A stretch of DNA of 43,947 bases from Nocardioidaceae bacterium (GTDB lineage: Bacteria; Actinomycetota; Actinomycetes; Propionibacteriales; Nocardioidaceae): contig JACCWP010000090.1 of assembly GCA_013697585.1 (NCBI GenBank), positions 1-43,947 on the forward strand, written 5' to 3'. The stretch's first letter is position 1. The number at the start of each line of letters is the position of its first letter. Under the pieces are notes generated by a model, which saw nothing but the letters and a program-made list of their open reading frames with translations, did not search any database and was not told the origin of the DNA. Position numbers and translations under genes: made by a program. Positions 4,208 to 31,306 of the stretch are shown here, one piece after another.

Positions 4208-5404
4208 TCAGCGACGGGTTGCCGACGTGATCGCCCTGCGCCGGCGGACCGCGCCGACCAGCACCAAGGCGGTCCCGGCCGCGAGCAGCAGCGATCCCAG
4301 CAACAGCACGGGCGCGCGGACGCTGGGCCGCACGGAGTCGACCCCGCCCGACGTCGTGTCCGAGGTCGCCTCGGCGGTGGCCTCGGCGGTGGCCTCATCC
4401 GTGGCCTCGGCGGTGGCCTCGGCGGTGGCCTCGTCGCGTGTCCCTGAGTCGGAGGTCCGCCGGGCGGCAGGGGCCTCGTGGGTGGTCGATGTCGGCTGGT
4501 CGCTGGAGACCCGATCGGTGGGATGGTCGGTTGCGTCCGGCGGGCCCTGGCCGTCGCTTGATTGCTCCGCGGTTGTTGCGCTGTCGGTGGGGTCAGGCGT
4601 GTCCTCGGACGCGATCGGCTCGGTCGGTTCGTTGTCGTCAGCCGGGCTGCTCTGGTCGGTCCATGTCGTCGCGGCGGGAGGCGGGGCGATGGTCTCGGTC
4701 TCCTCGGCGGACCCGCCGGTGGAAGCGTCGCTGTCGGTGAGCTCGGGCTGCACGTCGACCAGAGCGCACGCCTCGTTGTCGACGACCAGCCCGTCCATCG
4801 CCTCGCCGGTGACCGTCGGTGCGGCGACGAGCTCAGCCTCGCCGGACACCACCTGGACGACGATGGTCAAGGTGATCGTCGACCCGGGCTCCATCGGACC
4901 GATGTCGAACTCGCCCGTGCCGAGGTCGTACGCGGCGGGGGTGTCGAGGATGGCCAAGCCCTCGGGCATCGGAGCGCTGACCGTGACGGCTGGGTCGGTC
5001 CCCGGGCCGGCGTTCGTGACGACGATCTCGATGGTCAGCTGATCGCCTAGCTCGACGGCTTGTGGGGAGGCGTCGGCGGTGATCGACAGGGCCGCGGTGT
5101 CGGTACCGCCGCTGCTGTCCCCGTCGGAGGTGGCGTCGTCACCGTCGTCACCGTCGTCACCGCCGGGCTGAGCCGGGACATCGGGCACCGGCCCGGTCGT
5201 CGCCGCGATGGTTGCGGCTGCGACCTGCTCCGCGGCCGGTGAGGCCGGCGCCTGACGCGACAGCGCCGATCGCGTGGTGCAACCGTCGACGGCATCGGCC
5301 TGTCCGGTCCCGGGCACGACGAGCAGGGCAGTGCCCAGCAGAGCGGCCAGCAGACCGGTCGGCACGCACTGCGCGGCGCTCTCGCGCACTCGAGACCAGA
5401 TCAC
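4208..5404 (-). CDS. secreted DUF11-type repeat protein with C-terminal membrane anchor
   Basis: The 398-residue product begins with a signal peptide (hydrophobic core LLAALLGTALLVV, cleavage near GQADA). An acidic DDGDDGDD linker follows, then one beta-sandwich domain of DUF11/CARDB type (LTIEIVVTNAGPGTDPAVTV). After that comes a long Ser/Thr/Pro/Glu-rich region that ends in an EATAEA repeat (4363-4436), one transmembrane helix (APVLLLGSLLLAAGTALVLVG) and a basic tail (RRRRAITSATRR). This layout fits an extracellular stalk-like protein anchored in the membrane; no LPXTG motif is seen. The GTG at 5404 was chosen because a -10-like TATCGT (5417-5412) lies 7 nt upstream, as for a leaderless mRNA; the frame is open further upstream. 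The function is unknown. Confidence 0.8.
   Translation of the reverse strand: MIWSRVRESAAQCVPTGLLAALLGTALLVVPGTGQADAVDGCTTRSALSRQAPASPAAEQVAAATIAATTGPVPDVPAQPGGDDGDDGDDATSDGDSSGGTDTAALSITADASPQAVELGDQLTIEIVVTNAGPGTDPAVTVSAPMPEGLAILDTPAAYDLGTGEFDIGPMEPGSTITLTIVVQVVSGEAELVAAPTVTGEAMDGLVVDNEACALVDVQPELTDSDASTGGSAEETETIAPPPAATTWTDQSSPADDNEPTEPIASEDTPDPTDSATTAEQSSDGQGPPDATDHPTDRVSSDQPTSTTHEAPAARRTSDSGTRDEATAEATAEATDEATAEATAEATSDTTSGGVDSVRPSVRAPVLLLGSLLLAAGTALVLVGAVRRRRAITSATRR
4363..4436. repeat. 12-bp tandem repeat coding for EATA units
   Basis: About six units of a 12-bp repeat (consensus ggcctcggcggt on the plus strand) encode the (EATA)n stretch of the secreted protein on the minus strand. 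One unit differs (ggcctcatccgt). Such repeats expand and contract easily, so the length of the stalk may vary between strains. Confidence 0.85.
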
Positions 5405-22491: not shown

Positions 22492-23184
22492 TCAGTCGAC
22501 CCGCCACGTGGCGGGCAGCGGGGCGTCGACGAGATCGGGCAGCTGGGCAAGGTACGCAGTCCGGTCGAGCTCCTCCGCCCCAAGGCTGGACAGGTGCGGG
22601 GTCTGCCACTGCACGTCCACCAGTCGGCGAGCGCCCCGCGCCGCCGCGTCGTCGCAGAGCAGCTCGACCAGGGCGACCAGGGCGACCTTCGACGCGTCCC
22701 GGGCGTGGTGGAACATCGACTCACCGGCGAACAACCCGCCGATGCTCACGCCGTACAACCCGCCCACCAGCCCGCCCGCGGGGTCGTAGGTCTCCACCGA
22801 GTGCGCCCAGCCCAGCGCGTGCAGGCGCCCGTACGCCCGCTGCATCGGCATCGAGATCCACGCCCCCGGTCGGCGTCTGTCGGCGCACGCGCCGAGCACC
22901 CGGTCGAAGTCGGTGTCGACCCGCGTCTCGTAGCGACGGGTCGCCTGCCGCAGCGACCGCGACACCCGGAGGCGGTCGGGCCGCAGCACCCCCCGGCTCT
23001 GCGGGGACCACCACACCATTGGCCCCACCTCGTCGAGCGGCATCGGGAAGAGCCCGCTGCGGTAGGCCGCCAGGAGCGTTGCCGGCTCGAGGTCGGCACC
23101 AACGGCCACCGCGTCGTCGGGCGGCCAGGCTGTCGGGTCGAAGCCCCAGCGCGGGGGTGGCAGCTGCACGGGCACGCACCCCAT
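22492..23184 (-). CDS. aat: leucyl/phenylalanyl-tRNA-protein transferase
   Basis: The 230-residue enzyme transfers Leu or Phe from charged tRNA to N-terminal Arg/Lys of proteins, making them N-end-rule (ClpS/ClpAP) substrates. Diagnostic blocks are VAVGADLEPATLLAAYRSGLFPM, WWSPQSRGVL, GAWISMPMQRAY, GWAHSVETYD and GGLYGVSIGGLFAGESMFHHARDASKVAL. Length is normal. The ATG at 23184 gives the expected PPPRWGFDP start region. It lies 47 nt from the divergent EcsC gene. Confidence 0.96.
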   Translation of the reverse strand: MGCVPVQLPPPRWGFDPTAWPPDDAVAVGADLEPATLLAAYRSGLFPMPLDEVGPMVWWSPQSRGVLRPDRLRVSRSLRQATRRYETRVDTDFDRVLGACADRRRPGAWISMPMQRAYGRLHALGWAHSVETYDPAGGLVGGLYGVSIGGLFAGESMFHHARDASKVALVALVELLCDDAAARGARRLVDVQWQTPHLSSLGAEELDRTAYLAQLPDLVDAPLPATWRVD

Positions 23185-23231: not shown

Positions 23232-23915
23232 ATGGGCATCGCCCGCACCGCCGCCCGGGGGCTGGTCCCGTTGGGGCTGCGCGTGGCCCCGCACTTCAGC
23301 TCGTTGTTCGTTCGCGAGATCCTCGAACGCTCCATCGATGGCGGGGGACCGTTCCGCGGGGCCGCCGCCGCAGCCGACGCCAGGCTGCGCAGCGCTGACG
23401 GCGACCCGGTGGCGGCTGTCAGCAGCGTCATCGACGCTCACGTGCGCGCCGCCGGAGCCCAGGGGTTCGTCACCAACCTTGGCGGGCTGGTCACGATGGC
23501 AGTGACGATCCCCGCCAACGTCTCGGGGCTCGCGCTGCTGCAGTGCCACCTGGTCGCGGGGATCGCGCACCTGCACGGATACGACCTGCGGGACCCGCGG
23601 GTGCGCAACGCGGTGTTGGCGTGCCTGCTCGGCGAGACCGTCGTGACCGAGCTCGTACGCTCCGGCAAGCTTCCGTCGTCACCGATGGGGCTGGCCACCT
23701 CGCCGGTCCACGACCCCGAGCTCGACACCAGCATCGCCCAGGACGTCACCGCCGAGCTGTTCAGCCGCGTCGGCGGGCGGCGGCTCGCGACCACCGTCGG
23801 GCGCCGGGTCCCGCTCGTCGGCGGCGGTGTCGGCGCGATCGGCGACGGGGTGTCGACCTACCGGGTGGGCCGCTATGCCGAGCGAGAGCTTCGTCCACGT
23901 CCCCGCACCAGCTAG
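23232..23915 (+). CDS. EcsC family protein
   Basis: The 227-residue protein matches the EcsC family: GAQGFVTNLGGLVTMAVTIPANVSGLALLQCHLVAGIAHLHGYDL (residues about 75-119) is the conserved core, and a glycine-rich hydrophobic stretch VPLVGGGVGAIGDG lies near the C-terminus. The family is named after a gene next to an ABC transporter in Bacillus; its biochemical role is unknown. GGAGGAGA lies 5 nt before the ATG. Its TAG stop overlaps the TAG of the convergent sulfotransferase gene within CTAG. Confidence 0.88.
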   Translation: MGIARTAARGLVPLGLRVAPHFSSLFVREILERSIDGGGPFRGAAAAADARLRSADGDPVAAVSSVIDAHVRAAGAQGFVTNLGGLVTMAVTIPANVSGLALLQCHLVAGIAHLHGYDLRDPRVRNAVLACLLGETVVTELVRSGKLPSSPMGLATSPVHDPELDTSIAQDVTAELFSRVGGRRLATTVGRRVPLVGGGVGAIGDGVSTYRVGRYAERELRPRPRTS

Positions 23916-25462
23916 CCGCCGAGCGTGTCCGCTGCCGCCTTGTTCGCCGCCTGCTGAGCAGCCTTCTTGGCCGCACCCTTCTTGGCGGCACCCTTCTTCG
24001 CCGCACCCTTCTTCGCGGCACCCTTCTTCGCGGCACCCTTCTTTCCGGGATTGGCCCGAGCCCAGGATCTTGCATGCTCCCTGGCCGCGGCCCGCTCGGC
24101 CCGCTTGCTGGCGCGTCGCTCCCGTTCCAGCCCGCCGGCGGTGTCCGCGTCATGACCGGCATCGAGGCTGGCGGCGATCCTCAGCGCCCGACGCTGCTGG
24201 CGACGCGCGGCCTTCATCGCGACCACGCCCGGCGGGTCGGGCGCGGTCCGCCTCGCCCGCGCCTCGTGTCGTTCGCCCGGCCCCGGCGGGTCACCTGTCA
24301 GGCCGAGATCCTCAGGCGGCGGAAGAGGCTGCTCGTGGCTGCGCGGCCCGTCGTACGGGAGCAGGCCCTGCCGTCGGGTCACCTCCAACAGGACCGATGC
24401 CAGTGTCTCCTCCATGACCGGCAACAGCTCGGAGTCGCTGACGTCGTCCGGGCGGCGGGCGCTGGCTGCGCCAGGCGACGAAGACAGATCGCCCAGGTCG
24501 CCGTAGACGTTGACACCAGAGCTGGCGAAGAAGTCCACGGCATCGGCGGTGCGCTCGTCGACCCACGCCCGGTCCTCGTCCGGGAGCACCAGCGGGAAGG
24601 ACTGCTCGCGCAGCTCGAGCACCTCGCGCGCGAGGAAGAACTTCACCAGGTCGGAATAGCTGTCACCCGGGATTCGCCCGGAGACGCGCTGGTTGATCCG
24701 TCGCAGCGTCTCGCACTCGACGGCTCCGAGCGAGGTGTTGGTGCGGCGCACGTCGACGTCGTAGGCCGCCGGGTCCAGGCCGGTCGCCGCCGAGAAGCGC
24801 TCCCACAGCAGGGTGGGCGAGGCACCCGACGGGGGCACGGTGACCACGTGCACGTGATCGGCGGGAACGTGGTCGAGGTACGGGCCGAGCGACTGCCGCG
24901 GATCCTGCTGGCGCCAGAACCGGCTTCCCAGCGTGTCGGCGCGGCGATCGTCACGGCGGGGCAGCAGCCGGGTCAGCCCGGTGGATGACGGCACCGCCGT
25001 GCCGGCGGCGTCGCGCAGCGAGGTGATGAACCGCTCCCAGGTCGAAGCCTGCTTGTTGCGCAGCGTCGTCTGCCAGGCGGCGGGGATGACCTTCACGTAG
25101 TCGCGCGCCGTGAAGACGATGTGCACCTCTGCCGGCGCGAGCGACCGCACCATCCGCGTGATCGCCTTGGGCGGGGCCATGCACAAGAACTCCATCGACA
25201 GCAGCCCGGTGTGCGCGTCGGCCGCGGCGATCTCGTCGACCAGGAACTGCCACTGACGCGCGTCCTCGGGTCTCGAGCCCGGATGCATCCTTCGGCCCAT
25301 CAGCTGCAGCACCGATCGCACCAGCTGGCCGAACGTCTCTCGGGGCAGCACCACCTGGTTGCGCAGCAGCGCGTCCCGGTTCTGGTAGAGCACGGCCTGG
25401 ATGAAGGTCGTGCCCGTCTTCAACGGCCCGATGTGGACAAAGACTTTCTGCACCGACGCCAT
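23912..25462 (-). CDS. sulfotransferase-like protein with (AAKKG)n basic tail
   Basis: The 516-residue protein starts with a PAPS-type P-loop, IGPLKTGTTFIQ (K15), and has a 3'-phosphate-binding-like segment, FTARDYVKVIPAAW. It therefore belongs to the sulfotransferase/P-loop fold; the substrate is unknown. After about residue 390 comes a highly basic tail with RRQQRRALR, KRAERAAAREHARSWAR and then about five AAKKG repeats (15-bp DNA repeat, 23961-24046). The tail resembles the Lys/Ala tails of actinobacterial HU and heparin-binding proteins. ATG 25462 was chosen over GTG 25471 because AGGAGG is only 2 nt from the latter. The neighbour upstream is a paralogue. Confidence 0.82.
   Translation of the reverse strand: MASVQKVFVHIGPLKTGTTFIQAVLYQNRDALLRNQVVLPRETFGQLVRSVLQLMGRRMHPGSRPEDARQWQFLVDEIAAADAHTGLLSMEFLCMAPPKAITRMVRSLAPAEVHIVFTARDYVKVIPAAWQTTLRNKQASTWERFITSLRDAAGTAVPSSTGLTRLLPRRDDRRADTLGSRFWRQQDPRQSLGPYLDHVPADHVHVVTVPPSGASPTLLWERFSAATGLDPAAYDVDVRRTNTSLGAVECETLRRINQRVSGRIPGDSYSDLVKFFLAREVLELREQSFPLVLPDEDRAWVDERTADAVDFFASSGVNVYGDLGDLSSSPGAASARRPDDVSDSELLPVMEETLASVLLEVTRRQGLLPYDGPRSHEQPLPPPEDLGLTGDPPGPGERHEARARRTAPDPPGVVAMKAARRQQRRALRIAASLDAGHDADTAGGLERERRASKRAERAAAREHARSWARANPGKKGAAKKGAAKKGAAKKGAAKKGAAKKAAQQAANKAAADTLGG
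23961..24046. repeat. 15-bp tandem repeat coding for AAKKG units
   Basis: Five to six copies of a 15-bp unit (ggcacccttcttcgc type on the plus strand) encode the AAKKG tail of the sulfotransferase-like protein. Units alternate between two near-identical forms. Confidence 0.85.
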
Positions 25463-25524
25463 CTGTTTCACCGCCTCCTCGGTCGCGCTTGCCGATCGGT
25501 CCTGGTCCCGTCGCGCACTCGACG

Positions 25525-26817
25525 CTACCGCCGTCGCAGAAGCCGGTACCCCGCGTACCCGATCCCCAGTGCCCAGTTGTCGTGCGCGGCCGCGACCATG
25601 CGCTCCTTCGCCGCCTGCCAGCGGCTGCGCTCCAGCTCGGCCACCCGGGCGCGCGCCGCATCGCGCTCGGCGGCGTAGCCCTCGGCGGCTGCTCGCAGGT
25701 CGTCGGTGACGGCTCGCAGGTCATCGCGCTCCCTGGTCAGCAGGCGGCGCTGGCCCACCAGGTCGGCCTGCTCCTCGAGCGCGTCAGCGATCGTACGGAC
25801 CGCGAGCACCAGCAGCTCGTCTGCGCCCACCTTGTCCGGGTCGACTGCGGTCGACGTGACGGCGTCGGTGGGAACGAGGTCGGTCAGGTCGCCGACGACG
25901 CGCACGTCGGACGCCTGCAACCGGCCGACCCACTCGCGGCTGAGGTCGGACGCCCAGTCGCGGGCCTCCGCGGGAAGCGCCACGCGGCCCGACGTGGGCC
26001 GGCTAGCCCACCATCGGCCGAGCATCGCCCCCCGCAGCGACGTGCGGCGTACGGCGCCCTTGGTGTCACGAGCGTCCAGCTCGGCCTGGATGATGCGCAG
26101 CATCGTGGTCTCGCGCGGCCCGAGGCCGGGGTTGGAGCGAGCCGTGCGATCGGGCAGCCACTCCCCGGCCAGCCCGAACGCTTCGCAGAAGCGGCCGAGC
26201 AGCAGCTCCTGGTCCTGACCAGTGGCCGGGACGGTCACCACCGTGGCCGGTACGCCGCCGAGACCTCGCGACCACCGGTCGACGACCTCGGGCCAGGTCT
26301 GGCGGTGCCAGAAGCGGCGGGACCCCTCCTCGTCGGGATCCTCGCGCAGATTGTGCACGAAGGTGCCGTAGTCGCTGGTGGAGGAGTGCTTGACCTTCTC
26401 CTGCCAAGCGGCCGGAATCTGCCGGATGAGGTCGCGGGCGGAATAGACCACCCGCAGCTCGTGGTCGGGCAGGGCCGCGCGAACCCTGGCGATCGTGGCC
26501 TCGTCGGCGACGCAGAGGTTCTCGTTGCTGATCACGACGTCGCCCGGCCAGTCCTGAATCTGCGCCGTCAGGTCGTCGAATGCGCCCCGCGCGGTCTCGA
26601 GCACGCCGCCCCAGGACATGTCGAGCAGGTCGACGGTCGCGTGGAACTGGGACTGCCGGTGCTGGCCCGGTACCAGCACGCCGTGCTCGCGGAGCAGGTC
26701 GCGATTGCTGAACAGCACGTCCTGCAACTGGGTCGTGCCGGTCTTGGGCGCACCCACGTGCAGGTGCACGACACGCCGACCCCGGAGTGCCGGATCGGTC
26801 GTCGGCTCGGCTGTCAC
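25525..26817 (-). CDS. sulfotransferase-like protein with C-terminal coiled coil
   Basis: The 430-residue protein is a paralogue of the next gene downstream. Its P-loop is LHVGAPKTGTTQLQ (K25), followed by VLFSNRDLLREHG and the matching VVYSARDLIRQIPAAW segment. The C-terminal third differs: residues about 325-405 form a coiled coil (LLTRERDDLRAVTDDLRAAAEGYAAERDAARARVAELE), and the end WALGIGYAGYRLLRRR is short and basic. The sulfotransferase fold is clear and the substrate is unknown; glycans or surface polymers are an inference. GTG 26817 is preceded by GAGGAGCGCC. The gap to the downstream paralogue is 62 nt, so the two are probably co-transcribed. Confidence 0.82.
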   Translation of the reverse strand: MTAEPTTDPALRGRRVVHLHVGAPKTGTTQLQDVLFSNRDLLREHGVLVPGQHRQSQFHATVDLLDMSWGGVLETARGAFDDLTAQIQDWPGDVVISNENLCVADEATIARVRAALPDHELRVVYSARDLIRQIPAAWQEKVKHSSTSDYGTFVHNLREDPDEEGSRRFWHRQTWPEVVDRWSRGLGGVPATVVTVPATGQDQELLLGRFCEAFGLAGEWLPDRTARSNPGLGPRETTMLRIIQAELDARDTKGAVRRTSLRGAMLGRWWASRPTSGRVALPAEARDWASDLSREWVGRLQASDVRVVGDLTDLVPTDAVTSTAVDPDKVGADELLVLAVRTIADALEEQADLVGQRRLLTRERDDLRAVTDDLRAAAEGYAAERDAARARVAELERSRWQAAKERMVAAAHDNWALGIGYAGYRLLRRR

Positions 26818-26868: not shown

Positions 26869-27801
26869 TCAGGCTAGCGCCTGCACCACCCGAGAGGGGC
26901 TCGGGCGGCCGAGGTGGCGGGCGATCCACTGGCTGGTCCGGGTCAGCGCAGCGAGGTCGACACCGGTGTGCACGCCGAGGCCGTCGAGCAGCCACACCAG
27001 GTCCTCGGTCGCGAGGTTTCCGGTTGCGCTCCTGGCGAACGGGCAGCCACCCAGCCCGCCGGCCGACGCGTCGATGGTGGTGACCCCAGCCCGCAGGCCA
27101 GCCAGCACGTTCGCGAGCGCCTGGCCGTACGTGTCGTGGCAGTGCAGGGCCAACCGGTCGGGGCCGACACCAGCCGCGGCGAGCTCGCCCAGCAGGGCCG
27201 TGACGTGCCCGGCGGTGCCCACACCGATGGTGTCGCCGAGGGACAGCTGGTCGGCCCCGAGGTCGAGCAACCGGCGTCCGGCGGCGACCACCTGGTCGAG
27301 CGGCACGTCCCCCTCCCACGGGTCGCCGAAGCACATCGACAGGTACGCGCGGACGGCCATGCCCGCGTCGCGGGCACGGCTGACGACCGGCGCGAACATG
27401 GCGTACTGCTCGTCGAGCGCCCGGTTGAGGTTGCGGCGGGCGAACGTCTCGGTCGCGCTGGCGAAGATCGCGATATGCCTGACGCCGGCCGTCAGCGCGC
27501 GCTCCAGCCCGCGCTCGTTGGGCACCAGGACTGGCAGTGCCTGACTGGGCGGGAGCCCGTCGGTGGCGAGCCGGGCGAGCAGCCCGTCTGCATCGGCCAG
27601 CTGCGGCACCCACCGAGGGTGCACCAGGCTGGTGGTCTCGACGACGGGCAGCCCGGCAGCCACGAGCCGCTGGACGAACTCCGCCTTGACGTCGACCGGG
27701 ACGAGAGCAGACTCGTTCTGCAAGCCGTCGCGAGGGGCGACCTCGTAGATGGTCACCCGCTCGGGCAACGTCGGGTCGCGTACCACCTGCGGCGCGCGCA
27801 T
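26869..27801 (-). CDS. mvaB: hydroxymethylglutaryl-CoA lyase
   Basis: The 310-residue protein is a DRE-TIM lyase. Visible are YEVAPRDGLQNE (catalytic Arg/Asp metal site), ETTSLVHPRWVPQLAD, LSMCFGDPWEGDV, LSLGDTIGVG, LHCHDTYGQAL (metal His pair) and GGLGGCPFARSATGNLATED, which carries the mobile-loop cysteine. It cleaves HMG-CoA to acetoacetate and acetyl-CoA, the last step of leucine degradation. Its ATG overlaps the TGA of the carboxylase alpha gene (TGATG), so it is coupled. It ends the three-gene operon. Confidence 0.94.
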   Translation of the reverse strand: MRAPQVVRDPTLPERVTIYEVAPRDGLQNESALVPVDVKAEFVQRLVAAGLPVVETTSLVHPRWVPQLADADGLLARLATDGLPPSQALPVLVPNERGLERALTAGVRHIAIFASATETFARRNLNRALDEQYAMFAPVVSRARDAGMAVRAYLSMCFGDPWEGDVPLDQVVAAGRRLLDLGADQLSLGDTIGVGTAGHVTALLGELAAAGVGPDRLALHCHDTYGQALANVLAGLRAGVTTIDASAGGLGGCPFARSATGNLATEDLVWLLDGLGVHTGVDLAALTRTSQWIARHLGRPSPSRVVQALA

Positions 27802-29744
27802 CAGGTGGCTGACAGGTCCGCGGGGGCGGGCGCGACGCGGAACAGCACGTGCCCGATGGGCACCTGGTCGCCGGCTGCGGCGCCGACGGCCGCAACCGTG
27901 CCATCGAAGGGGGCGGTGAGGGCCAGCTCCATCTTCATCGCCTCCAGTGCCCCGAGCGGCTGGCCGGCGAGCACGGTCTCGCCGGCGCGCACCCGCACGG
28001 CGAGCACCGTGCCGGGCATGGGGGCGACCACGTCTCCGTCGGCGGTGGCGGTCGCGTGGTCGGCGAGGACGTCAGGACGCACGAAGACGTGCCGGTGTCC
28101 CTGGTGGACGACCTCCACGGCGTGCGCGGTCACGTTGACGACGCCCTGCAGCAGCCGGCCGCCCAGGTCGAGCACGACAACGTGATAGGCGCAGCGCAGC
28201 TCCTCCACCGGGGTGTCGTCGACCCGCCCAGCGACGCGGTCGACGAGGACCGGCCGGTCGAGCTCGACCCGCACGGGCGTCGGCGGCCCGCCGAGCCGCC
28301 AACCGTCTGGCGCGAACGGGTGCGGGTCACCGTCGGTCATGACCAGCACGGCGGCGACCGCCCAGGCCGCGAGAACCCGGTGGGCGTCCAGCTCCGGCTC
28401 GTCGATCGTCGCGGAGTCCAGCCATGACGTGTTGATTGCGGCGTCGCGGAAGGCCGCACCCGCCGCCAGCACGCGTAGGAAGCCGACGTTGGTGGTCAGG
28501 CCGAGGATCGCCGTGTCGTCAAGAGCGGCGACCAGCGCCCGCCGTGCGGTCTCCCGGTCGCGGCCGTGCACCACGATCTTGCCGAGCATGGGGTCGTAGG
28601 CAGTGCCGACGACCTGCCCGCTGGAAAGCGCCGCGTCCACTCGGGCTTGCGCGGGCCACCGGACGAGGATGGCCTCTCCCGCCTGCGGCAGGAAGCCGTG
28701 GAAGGCGTCCTCTGCATAGACCCGCGCCTCGATCGCGTGACCGTCGACGCGCACGTCGTCCTGTCCGATCGGCAGCGGCGCGCCGCCGGCGACGAGCAGC
28801 TGCAGGCCCACGAGGTCGAGACCACAGACCATCTCTGTGACCGGGTGCTCGACCTGCAGACGGGTGTTCATCTCCAGGAAGAAGAAGTCTTCGCCCGCGA
28901 CGAGGAACTCCACGGTGCCGGCGTTGACGTAGCCGACCGCCCGGGCCAGCGCGACCGCTGCCTCGCACAACCGGGTGCGCAGGTCCGCCGAGATCGTGGG
29001 TGCCGGGGCCTCCTCCAACACCTTCTGGTGCCGACGCTGGGTCGAGCAGTCCCGCTCGTACAGGTGCAGGCACGAACCGTGTGCGTCGGCCAGCACCTGG
29101 ACCTCGACGTGGCGGCCGTGCTCGACGTATTGCTCGACCAGCAGCGTGTCGTCGCCGAAGGACGCCAGCGCCTCGCGTCCGCCCGCGGCGAGGGCCTCGT
29201 CGAGGTCTGCGGCATGGCGCACCACGCGCATGCCCTTGCCGCCACCACCGGCGGCCGCCTTGACCAGCAGCGGGTACGCAACCGGCGGCGGCCTGTCATC
29301 GTCACCACGGACTGGGGCGCCGAGCGATGGAGACAGCTCATGGGAGGGAACGCAGGGAACTCCGGCGGCCACGGCCACGGAGCGAGCATGGTCCTTGCGA
29401 CCCATCTGCTCGATCACGTCCGCGGGTGGTCCGACGAAGACGAGACCGGCGTCTGCCACCGCGCGGGCGAACGCGGCGTGCTCGGACAGGAATCCGTAGC
29501 CGGGGTGGACCGCCTCCGCGCCGGATGCCACAGCGGCCGCCACCACCGCCTCCCCGTCGAGATAGCTCTCCACGCGCACGGCGTCGTCGGCGGCCAGGAC
29601 GTGCGGCGCGGCGCGATCAGCCGCGGTGTAGACCGCGATGCTGCGAACGGCCGAGGCATGGCAGGCGCGAATGACGCGCAGGGCGATCTCGCCCCGGTTG
29701 GCGACCAGCAGGGTGCCGAACGGCCTTGCCGGCAACGAGGTCAT
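27801..29744 (-). CDS. methylcrotonyl-CoA carboxylase alpha subunit (biotin carboxylase plus BCCP)
   Basis: The 647-residue protein has a biotin carboxylase domain (LLVANRGEIALRVIRAC at the start, KAAAGGGGKGMRVV ATP-grasp loop, EMNTRLQVEHPVTE) and a C-terminal biotinyl domain with EAMKMEL, biotin on K604. It carboxylates biotin with ATP and bicarbonate for the beta subunit. The assignment to methylcrotonyl-CoA rests on the neighbours: a beta subunit with methylcrotonyl-type motifs and HMG-CoA lyase. A Pro/Asp-rich insertion (LGAPVRGDDDRPPP) precedes the ATP-grasp loop. ATG 29744 has GAGGGCGG upstream; a GTG at 29756 overlaps the beta stop and is possible. Confidence 0.93.
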   Translation of the reverse strand: MTSLPARPFGTLLVANRGEIALRVIRACHASAVRSIAVYTAADRAAPHVLAADDAVRVESYLDGEAVVAAAVASGAEAVHPGYGFLSEHAAFARAVADAGLVFVGPPADVIEQMGRKDHARSVAVAAGVPCVPSHELSPSLGAPVRGDDDRPPPVAYPLLVKAAAGGGGKGMRVVRHAADLDEALAAGGREALASFGDDTLLVEQYVEHGRHVEVQVLADAHGSCLHLYERDCSTQRRHQKVLEEAPAPTISADLRTRLCEAAVALARAVGYVNAGTVEFLVAGEDFFFLEMNTRLQVEHPVTEMVCGLDLVGLQLLVAGGAPLPIGQDDVRVDGHAIEARVYAEDAFHGFLPQAGEAILVRWPAQARVDAALSSGQVVGTAYDPMLGKIVVHGRDRETARRALVAALDDTAILGLTTNVGFLRVLAAGAAFRDAAINTSWLDSATIDEPELDAHRVLAAWAVAAVLVMTDGDPHPFAPDGWRLGGPPTPVRVELDRPVLVDRVAGRVDDTPVEELRCAYHVVVLDLGGRLLQGVVNVTAHAVEVVHQGHRHVFVRPDVLADHATATADGDVVAPMPGTVLAVRVRAGETVLAGQPLGALEAMKMELALTAPFDGTVAAVGAAAGDQVPIGHVLFRVAPAPADLSAT

Positions 29745-29752
29745 GTCCGCCC

Positions 29753-31306
29753 TCACATCCGGAAGACGCCATAGCGAGGCGAGGGCAGGGGCGCGTGAGC
29801 AGCGGCTGCGAGCCCGAGGCCGAGCACCCGCCGGGTCTCCGCTGGCTCGATCACACCGTCGTCCCACAGCCGGGCGGTCGCGTACCAGGGGGAGCCCTGA
29901 GTGGCGTACTGGCTGCGGATGGGCCGCTTGAACGCCTCCTCGTCCTCGGTCGACCAGTCGCCGCCGGTCGCCTCGAGGGTGTCGCGCCGAACGGTCGCCA
30001 GCACCGCAGCCGCCTGCTCGCCGCCCATCACCGAGATGCGCGCGTTGGGCCAGGTCCACAGGAACCGCGGGTCGTACGCCCGCCCGCACATGCCGTAGTT
30101 GCCGGCGCCGAACGAGCCGCCGATGACGACCGTGAACTTGGGTACGACCGAGCAGGCAACGGCGGTCACCAGCGTGGCGCCGTCCTTGGCGATGCCTCCG
30201 GTCTCGTACTCACGGCCGACCATGAAGCCGCTGATGTTCTGCAGGAAGACGAGGGGCACGCCGCGCTGGTTGGCCAGCTCGATGAAGTGCGCACCCTTGA
30301 GCGCCGACTCACTGAACAGGATCCCGTTGCTGGCGAGCACGGCGACCGGGTACCCCCAGACCCGTGCGAACCCGCACACCAGCGTCTGACCATAGAGCGC
30401 CTTGAACTCGTGCAGCCGCGACCCGTCCACGACGCGGCGGATGACTTCCCGCACGTCGTAGGGCACCCTCGGATCGGCCGGGACCACGTCGTGCAGACCG
30501 TCGGGGTCGACGGCCGGCTCTTCGGGCTCGTGCGGTCGCAGAGTCGGGTTGCGGGGGCGCTCGCCGGTGCCGATGACCGAGCGCACGATCGCGAGTGCCT
30601 CGGCGTCGTCAGCGGCCAGGTGGTCGACCACGCCGGAGCGGCGGGCGTGCACGTCGCCGCCTCCGAGCTCCTCGGCGGTCACGACCTCGCCGGTCGCGGC
30701 CTTCACCAGCGGTGGCCCACCGAGGAAGATCGTGCCCTGGTCCTTGACGATCACGGTCTCGTCCGACATGGCGGGCACGTAGGCACCCCCGGCCGTGCAG
30801 GAGCCCATCACGGCCGAGACCTGCGGCACGCCGACCTCGGACAGTCTTGCCTGGTTGAAGAAGATCCGGCCGAAGTGCTCGCGGTCAGGAAAGACCTCGT
30901 CCTGCAGCGGCAGGTAGGCGCCGCCGGAGTCGACGAGGTAGACACACGGGAGCCGGTTGTCGAACGCGACCTGCTGAGCCCGCAGGTGCTTCTTGACCGT
31001 CATCGGGTAGTACGTGCCGCCCTTGACCGTGGCGTCGTTGGCGACCACGACGCACTCGCGAGCTGCCACCCGACCGATGCCCGTGACGATGCCAGCCGAC
31101 GGGACGGCGTCGTCGTACATGCCGGTGGCGGCCAGCGGGCTGAGCTCGAGGAAGGGCGAGCCCGGGTCGAGCAGCCGGTCGACCCGGTCGCGGACGAGCA
31201 GCTTGCCGCGGCCGACGTGCCGCTCGCGCGCCGTGGTCGAGCCACCCTGGCGGGCAATCGCCAACCGCGCGCGCAGCTCGTCGACGAGGTCGCGCAACTC
31301 ACTCAC
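29753..31306 (-). CDS. methylcrotonyl-CoA carboxylase beta subunit (carboxyltransferase)
   Basis: The 517-residue protein is a two-domain acyl-CoA carboxyltransferase. Its [17 protein letters not shown] block, [38 protein letters not shown] and [19 protein letters not shown] are typical of methylcrotonyl-CoA carboxylase rather than of propionyl-CoA carboxylase. It transfers CO2 from biotin to 3-methylcrotonyl-CoA, giving 3-methylglutaconyl-CoA. The gene opens the operon beta-alpha-mvaB. The usual isovaleryl-CoA dehydrogenase and enoyl-CoA hydratase genes are not next to it. GTG 31306 starts the protein as [11 protein letters not shown]. Confidence 0.94.

Follow-up and report, generated by a model that had tools for sequence, protein, structure and literature searches.

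Among sulfotransferases of solved structure, the heparan sulfate enzymes NDST1 and the 3-O-sulfotransferases come closest in fold (Z 13-15) to two adjacent proteins, here called A and B, that are encoded in a 43,947-nt stretch of DNA from a Nocardioidaceae bacterium (contig JACCWP010000090.1 of assembly GCA_013697585.1; hereafter the window), the source genome comprising 2.94 Mb in 299 contigs at 98.9% completeness. The heparan sulfate enzymes sulfate polysaccharides at a membrane, as we propose for A and B, and share with them the P-loop KTGTT, but they are eukaryotic enzymes of the Golgi lumen with another acceptor, have ~10-15% identity to A and B and lack both the AAKKG and the coiled-coil tail discussed below. 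The closest bacterial solved structure, 3rnl from Alicyclobacillus acidocaldarius (Z 13.6-13.8; Foldseek E 2e-5 with A), is likewise distant in sequence (14-16% identity) and compact, with 247 residues in the entry. The Pfam families Sulfotransfer_3 and Sulfotransfer_4 give weak matches to several relatives of A and B and match neither protein itself, and in the same genomes Sulfotransfer_3 proteins make up a set of their own. Our analysis suggests, with moderate confidence, that A and B are 3'-phosphoadenosine 5'-phosphosulfate (PAPS)-dependent sulfotransferases of a family that modifies cell-wall galactan in Nocardioidaceae and some other actinobacteria.

Two further systems bear on this proposal. 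The gene set of the mycobacterial galactan pathway (Glf, GlfT1, GlfT2 and Wzm-Wzt) is also found on contig C204 of the source genome, whereas the GlfT2 loci examined in family f7, which gave the strongest GlfT2 scores and which we take to be Mycobacteriaceae, lack sulfotransferases of the A/B family. In the actinomycete Actinoplanes missouriensis, the wps-1 cluster (WpsB, WpsH), which has two predicted sulfotransferases and is the nearest published case that we found, is predicted to produce a polymer that may contain galactofuranose, and WpsH has a predicted heparan sulfate sulfotransferase domain (PMC13390465, 2026); wps-1, which we set beside A and B by its description, nevertheless concerns a Wzx/Wzy sporangial exopolysaccharide of predicted sulfation and not a GlfT2/Wzm-Wzt wall galactan. 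Our searches of the open-access literature found no paper on a sulfated actinobacterial wall galactan. Both sulfotransferases and the galactan pathway are well known in themselves; what appears to be new is that the two come together in the A/B family.

Fold and predicted PAPS binding of A and B

Both genes lie on the minus strand, were selected by a codon-usage gene caller and have good Shine-Dalgarno sequences (GAGGAG close upstream of the B start); an alternative internal ATG start would shorten A to 516 aa. The proteins and their putative PAPS-binding segments are as follows.

25525..26817, minus strand: protein B, sulfotransferase of the clade native to the locus, 430 aa, GTG start
26731..26754, minus strand: P-loop of B, GAPKTGTT, residues 22-29, predicted to bind the 5'-phosphosulfate (from sequence and the conservation of K25)
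26404..26439, minus strand: segment ARDLIRQIPAAW of B, residues 127-138, predicted to bind the 3'-phosphate, with R128 invariant and Ala at position +8
23912..25471, minus strand: protein A, sulfotransferase of a second clade, 519 aa, GTG start
25406..25429, minus strand: P-loop of A, GPLKTGTT, residues 15-22 (from sequence)
25073..25108, minus strand: segment ARDYVKVIPAAW of A, residues 122-133, predicted to bind the 3'-phosphate (from sequence)

A and B are 32% identical across a core of ~359 residues (E 2e-30). A sequence-only reading of this DNA had noticed PAPS P-loops and ARD..PAAW segments in both proteins, and the sequences bear this out. The P-loop lysine (K25 in B, K18 in A) is kept in 98% of 202 relatives and the ARD arginine (R128 in B, R123 in A), to which the motif assigns a putative role in binding the 3'-phosphate, in 100%, so that the two motifs are not chance resemblances; W138, Q139 and P197 (B numbering) are also near-invariant.

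Direct comparison of A and B with Pfam, NCBIfam, PHROGs and PDB sequences gave no useful match, and a profile (A1) searched against PDB sequences returned chance matches only. Neither protein scores above the gathering cut-off of Sulfotransfer_1, Sulfotransfer_3 or Sulfotransfer_4 and neither can therefore be filed under any one Pfam family, while an A orthologue from the same genus passes the Sulfotransfer_4 cut-off narrowly (23.0 vs 22.8 bits). Among 41 relatives, Sulfotransfer_3 was matched in five, Sulfotransfer_1 in two and Sulfotransfer_4 in one, with no other Pfam family at E 0.01. AlphaFold models built from the family alignment have confident cores (mean predicted local distance difference test score, pLDDT, 92.4 for B and 82.4 for A) and were compared with solved structures by VIA-align and Foldseek. 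In VIA-align, residues 15-317 of B match 1nst best (Z 14.0, root-mean-square deviation 4.1, 237 aligned residues) and 3rnl almost as well (Z 13.8), sulfotransferases occupying all of the best 40 rows, and A matches 8ccy and 1nst equally (both Z 15.0); 237-244 residues of A and B align with 1nst and 8ccy. The heparan sulfate N-sulfotransferase thus ranks first for both proteins, with the 3-O-sulfotransferases and 3rnl close behind. On these models, A and B are sulfotransferases with the sulfotransferase alpha/beta fold. Adenylate kinases and PFKFB also occur in the Foldseek and VIA lists, but in VIA the kinases align over ~155-180 residues at Z ~8.5 whereas sulfotransferases align over 230-245 at Z 14-15, and the Pfam matches of the relatives are to sulfotransferases alone, so that we regard a P-loop protein of another kind, such as a kinase, as scarcely credible.

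The fold itself does not fix the acceptor, and the glycopeptide antibiotic sulfotransferases StaL and Teg12/14 match as well (Z 9-10), as they might if A and B sulfated small molecules or secondary metabolites. Polysaccharide sulfotransferases nonetheless score clearly higher (Z 13-15), no biosynthetic cluster adjoins the genes, and the linkage to galactan genes is family-wide and the housekeeping locus conserved (see below); a small-molecule role is therefore improbable. The host genome encodes an adenosine 5'-phosphosulfate (APS) kinase (contig C209, E 2.2e-57) that would supply PAPS. APS kinase is a weak marker because it is present in nearly all of the genomes, and it was dropped from the co-occurrence analysis. 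PAPS binding and sulfotransfer would be expected of A and B. One feature of the sequence weighs against our interpretation: the position eight residues past the 3'-phosphate-binding arginine is usually serine in sulfotransferases and, judged from spacing alone, is alanine in A, B and 87% of the 202 relatives (serine in 11%). Another residue may take its place.

The family is large, actinobacterial, poorly annotated and barely detected by Pfam, and it is expanded in Nocardioidaceae: 25 genomes carry from 0 to 17 members each, and the source genome has eight, including a second tandem pair on C204. A scan of public genomes recovered mostly Nocardioides, with a few Actinopolyspora, Actinophytocola, other Pseudonocardiaceae, Jiangellales and Streptosporangiales. 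Two loci encode double-length proteins of 817 and 801 aa (L050:10387-12840 and L051:14239-16644), apparently two fused sulfotransferase units, which could be real fusions or gene-calling artefacts, and L051 together with L052 (G004:C147:34792-48084) contains the largest array seen, with about ten consecutive family sulfotransferases adjoining GlfT2. The separate Sulfotransfer_3 set of the source genome (G000; C75:16597-18173, C189, C153, C131), in part paired, is distinct in profile from A and B and may possibly serve a second sulfated product.

Association of the family with galactan genes

On C204 of the source genome, genes for Wzt, Wzm, GlfT2, Glf, a GT2 glycosyltransferase, a GlfT1-like protein and two LCP proteins are followed by the sulfotransferase pair, ~10 kb from GlfT2. 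Across 61 Nocardioidaceae genomes, with related genomes counted and sulfotransferases accepted at E <=1e-30 with A, family sulfotransferases and GlfT2 were both present in 43 and both absent from 14, three genomes having the sulfotransferase alone and one GlfT2 alone (Fisher p 4e-10). The association holds for one complete genome per genus (17 with both, 4 with neither, 1 with GlfT2 alone; p 7e-4), and within two single genera (g5, g7) sulfotransferases and GlfT2 have been lost together. As a control, generic Sulfotransfer_3 genes follow GlfT2 far less well (41 with both, 6 with neither, 11 and 3 discordant; p 0.011). Physical linkage agrees with this pattern: a family sulfotransferase lies <=4 kb from GlfT2 in 16 of 43 genomes (G001, G002, G003, G004, G005, G012, G016, G018, G023, G024, G039, G041, G047, G049, G055 and G058), compared with an expectation of 1-5% per genome.

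Outside Nocardioidaceae, the GlfT2 neighbourhoods of eight further families were searched directly. Sulfotransferases sit within the GlfT1-Glf-GlfT2-Wzm-Wzt cluster in three of these actinobacterial families (f17, f18 and f28; L190-L195), for example as five consecutive sulfotransferase genes followed by GlfT1, Glf, GlfT2, Wzm and Wzt in L191, or as five followed by GlfT2, Glf, GT2, GlfT1 and a sixth sulfotransferase in L193, and likewise in a Streptosporangiales metagenome-assembled genome (L128). Because relatives of A and B lie within the galactan gene set and co-vary with it, these bacteria probably have a sulfated cell wall. This also qualifies the earlier statement that no cluster names a substrate: the window has no polysaccharide cluster, yet other members of the family point to cell-wall galactan.

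Several observations count against a galactan acceptor. A and B themselves lie outside the galactan cluster, beside leucine-catabolism genes on contig C134 while the cluster is on C204, so the galactan association is one that holds for the family, and that A and B share the family substrate, presumably galactan, is an extension of it. No family sulfotransferases were found near GlfT2 in the loci of f6, f7, f36, f39 and f43, and galactan therefore does not require sulfation. Sulfotransferases without a detected GlfT2 occur in three genomes, of which one is 96% complete, and B at E 1e-3 finds distant sulfotransferases in G006, G017 and G021, of which G006 and G021 are nearly complete, with GlfT2 again undetected. 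Envelope genes can also be lost together, and the open-access literature yielded no report of sulfate in the Nocardioides wall.

Some family members, moreover, adjoin genes for LicD, a Fe-ADH/glycerol-1-phosphate (G1P) dehydrogenase-like protein, a nucleotidyltransferase, GT4 or FkbM, so that acceptors may differ among members, and a copy number of up to 17 per genome likewise suggests several acceptors. Such findings would fit sulfotransferases of another surface glycopolymer or glycolipid, for instance a teichoic-acid-like polymer or a capsule, with the link to GlfT2 arising from the clustering and joint loss of envelope genes. That explanation, the most serious competitor, appears unlikely given that GlfT2 and Glf are the most specific and recurrent partners, that four lineages beyond Nocardioidaceae have sulfotransferases inside the galactan cluster itself, and that the control genes track GlfT2 so much less closely.

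The MCC-HMGL-EcsC locus

A and B occupy a conserved position between genes of leucine degradation and a border formed by EcsC and Aat; the neighbouring genes are as follows.

26869..27801, minus strand: hydroxymethylglutaryl-CoA lyase (HMGL), conserved upstream neighbour, 51-bp gap to B
27801..29744, minus strand: methylcrotonyl-CoA carboxylase biotin subunit (MCCa), conserved neighbour
29753..31306, minus strand: methylcrotonyl-CoA carboxylase carboxyltransferase subunit (MCCb), conserved neighbour
23232..23915, plus strand: EcsC family gene, convergent with A and overlapping it by 4 bp, downstream border of the locus
22492..23184, minus strand: leucyl/phenylalanyl-tRNA-protein transferase (aat), conserved border

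On the minus strand the order is HMGL, B, A and the convergent EcsC gene, with 53 bp between B and A. A scan of the A-B gap for promoters and terminators, together with its folding, gave nothing above chance. The order MCCb-MCCa-HMGL-[sulfotransferases]-EcsC-Aat(-Fpg) is kept in 65 loci, the window included, from about 60 species (a few loci being duplicates of one genome; genes on the fetched loci were called by a simple codon-usage caller). Three sulfotransferases are present in 43 of these loci, two in 12, one in nine and four in one. Neighbouring sulfotransferase genes are spaced by <=20 bp in 91 of 110 pairs, often with ATGA-type overlaps, and a 4-bp overlap of the first with HMGL occurs in 22 of 59 cases, a packing that indicates probable co-transcription. 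The MCC and HMGL genes stand directly upstream of the sulfotransferases across Nocardioidaceae (window 26869-31306) for no reason that we could find, and we saw no functional link of the sulfotransferases to leucine degradation.

In the Nocardioides trios, the middle gene (L092:8892-9998, L055:10431-11651, L071:8865-9995 and ~45 other loci) is homologous to the family over the C-terminal two thirds (HHalign probability 99.5% over 197 columns). It has no P-loop, ARD arginine, Pfam match or basic tail and, judging from these sequence features, is probably a conserved, catalytically dead partner between two intact sulfotransferases. Its identification as a full sulfotransferase was rejected, since a profile-profile comparison that excluded two copies of it from the profile aligned the C-terminal two thirds only. 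Elsewhere in the window, positions 4364-4440 hold a 12-bp tandem repeat (GGTGGCCTCGGC) within an open reading frame for a predicted secreted protein (4208-5389).

C-terminal tails

Beyond their cores, A and B end in the tails that the sequence-only reading had described, an (AAKKG)n tail in A and a long helix with a short basic end in B.

23958..24043, minus strand: (AAKKG)n tail of A, encoded by 5.7 copies of a 15-bp tandem repeat that is unique to A
25579..25824, minus strand: single long helix of B, residues 332-413, a possible coiled coil (AlphaFold/DSSP, pLDDT mostly 85-97)
25531..25575, minus strand: short basic C-terminal helix of B, residues 415-429, of the LGIGYAGYRLLRRR type (from the model and relatives)

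The same reading took the tails for protein-specific binders of DNA or another polyanion, and this does not agree with their distribution. Basic C-termini are characteristic of the family: a net charge of at least +5 in the last 30 residues is seen in 64% of 207 family sulfotransferases, compared with 9% of 869 other proteins encoded at the same loci. The (AAKKG)n array, by contrast, is found in none of the other family sulfotransferases examined among these 207; the nearest A orthologue has a different lysine/arginine-rich end, and the end of B resembles those of several relatives at the locus. Tail types vary. Against histone-like profiles the tail of A scored below the cut-off (HC2, 15.1 of 40 bits; Rv3852, 15.6 of 100 bits), and these matches, as well as those to a valyl-tRNA ligase and a sigma factor, are compositional. 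Since the substrate that we propose is attached to a lipid at the inner leaflet, we read the basic ends as likely peripheral membrane anchors. The long helix of B, 82 residues modelled at high confidence, may mediate oligomerisation.

A and B as a pair

A dedicated A-B system would have B dock onto A by its coiled coil, with the basic tails attached to DNA or some other polyanion. In its favour stand that single 82-residue helix and the weak similarity of the lysine-rich tail of A to those of HC2 and Rv3852. The scores of these two are far under cut-off, however, basic tails occur throughout the family while AAKKG is not conserved, and the phylogeny separates the two proteins. In an IQ-TREE tree of 71 proteins (branch supports given as two values), B belongs to a 32-protein clade drawn entirely from the MCC-HMGL-EcsC locus (100/95), its closest relatives being single-copy sulfotransferases of two other genera (97/92). 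A groups (100/99) with A-type copies of its own genus, at 52% identity, and of one other genus; this group joins the C204 pair of the source genome and one further sulfotransferase (99/90). A same-genus relative has an A-type copy alone at the locus, and a genome of the other genus has two A-type copies there and no B; the difference in clade and these relatives indicate a separate entry of A into the locus. Only the source genome was found to combine A with B.

Homologues therefore do not occur as pairs as a rule, with one to four sulfotransferases per locus, and an obligate A-B heterodimer is not supported; we judge a dedicated two-protein system very improbable. The lack of regular pairing and the variation in tail type are, for the most part, what the sequence-only reading had itself named as evidence against its proposal. 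What stands of the pair as first described is that both proteins have the sulfotransferase fold and are encoded side by side in the same direction, and that curated annotation of their family is almost lacking. The likeness of its tail had made B a candidate for the third trio member; the tree gives B the locus clade and does not separate first from third.

A proposed pathway and its meaning

In mycobacteria, galactan grows on a polyprenyl carrier on the cytoplasmic side and leaves the cytoplasm through Wzm-Wzt (PMC10951656), which would put it within reach of cytosolic PAPS enzymes during its synthesis. In the pathway that we propose, APS kinase would supply PAPS, which the P-loop and ARD segment of the sulfotransferase core would bind, and sulfate would be transferred to hydroxyls of the polyprenyl-diphosphate-linked galactofuranan while GlfT1 and GlfT2 build it at the cytoplasmic face. 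With its basic and often amphipathic end, the C-terminal tail would keep the enzyme at the acidic inner leaflet, A and B might sulfate different positions, Wzm-Wzt would export the sulfated polymer and LCP ligases would attach it to the wall. For the broader proposal that a sulfated cell-wall galactofuranan exists in Nocardioidaceae and several other actinobacterial lineages and is patterned by a large, lineage-specific set of membrane-associated sulfotransferases, including the conserved operonic Nocardioides trio of two intact enzymes and a middle homologue lacking the PAPS-binding half, we see about even chances.

Sulfated bacterial polysaccharides are considered rare; a recent paper describes them as confined, so far as known, to cyanobacteria and names actinomycetes as an unverified possibility (PMC13390465, 2026). 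A sulfated cell wall in the bacteria studied here appears to be undescribed so far. Should the galactan of a large soil family indeed be sulfated, wall sulfate would be a fixed negative charge, with consequences for cation binding, phage adsorption, chemotaxonomy and enzyme discovery, and many genes missed by curated protein-family libraries would gain a substrate and an easy test.

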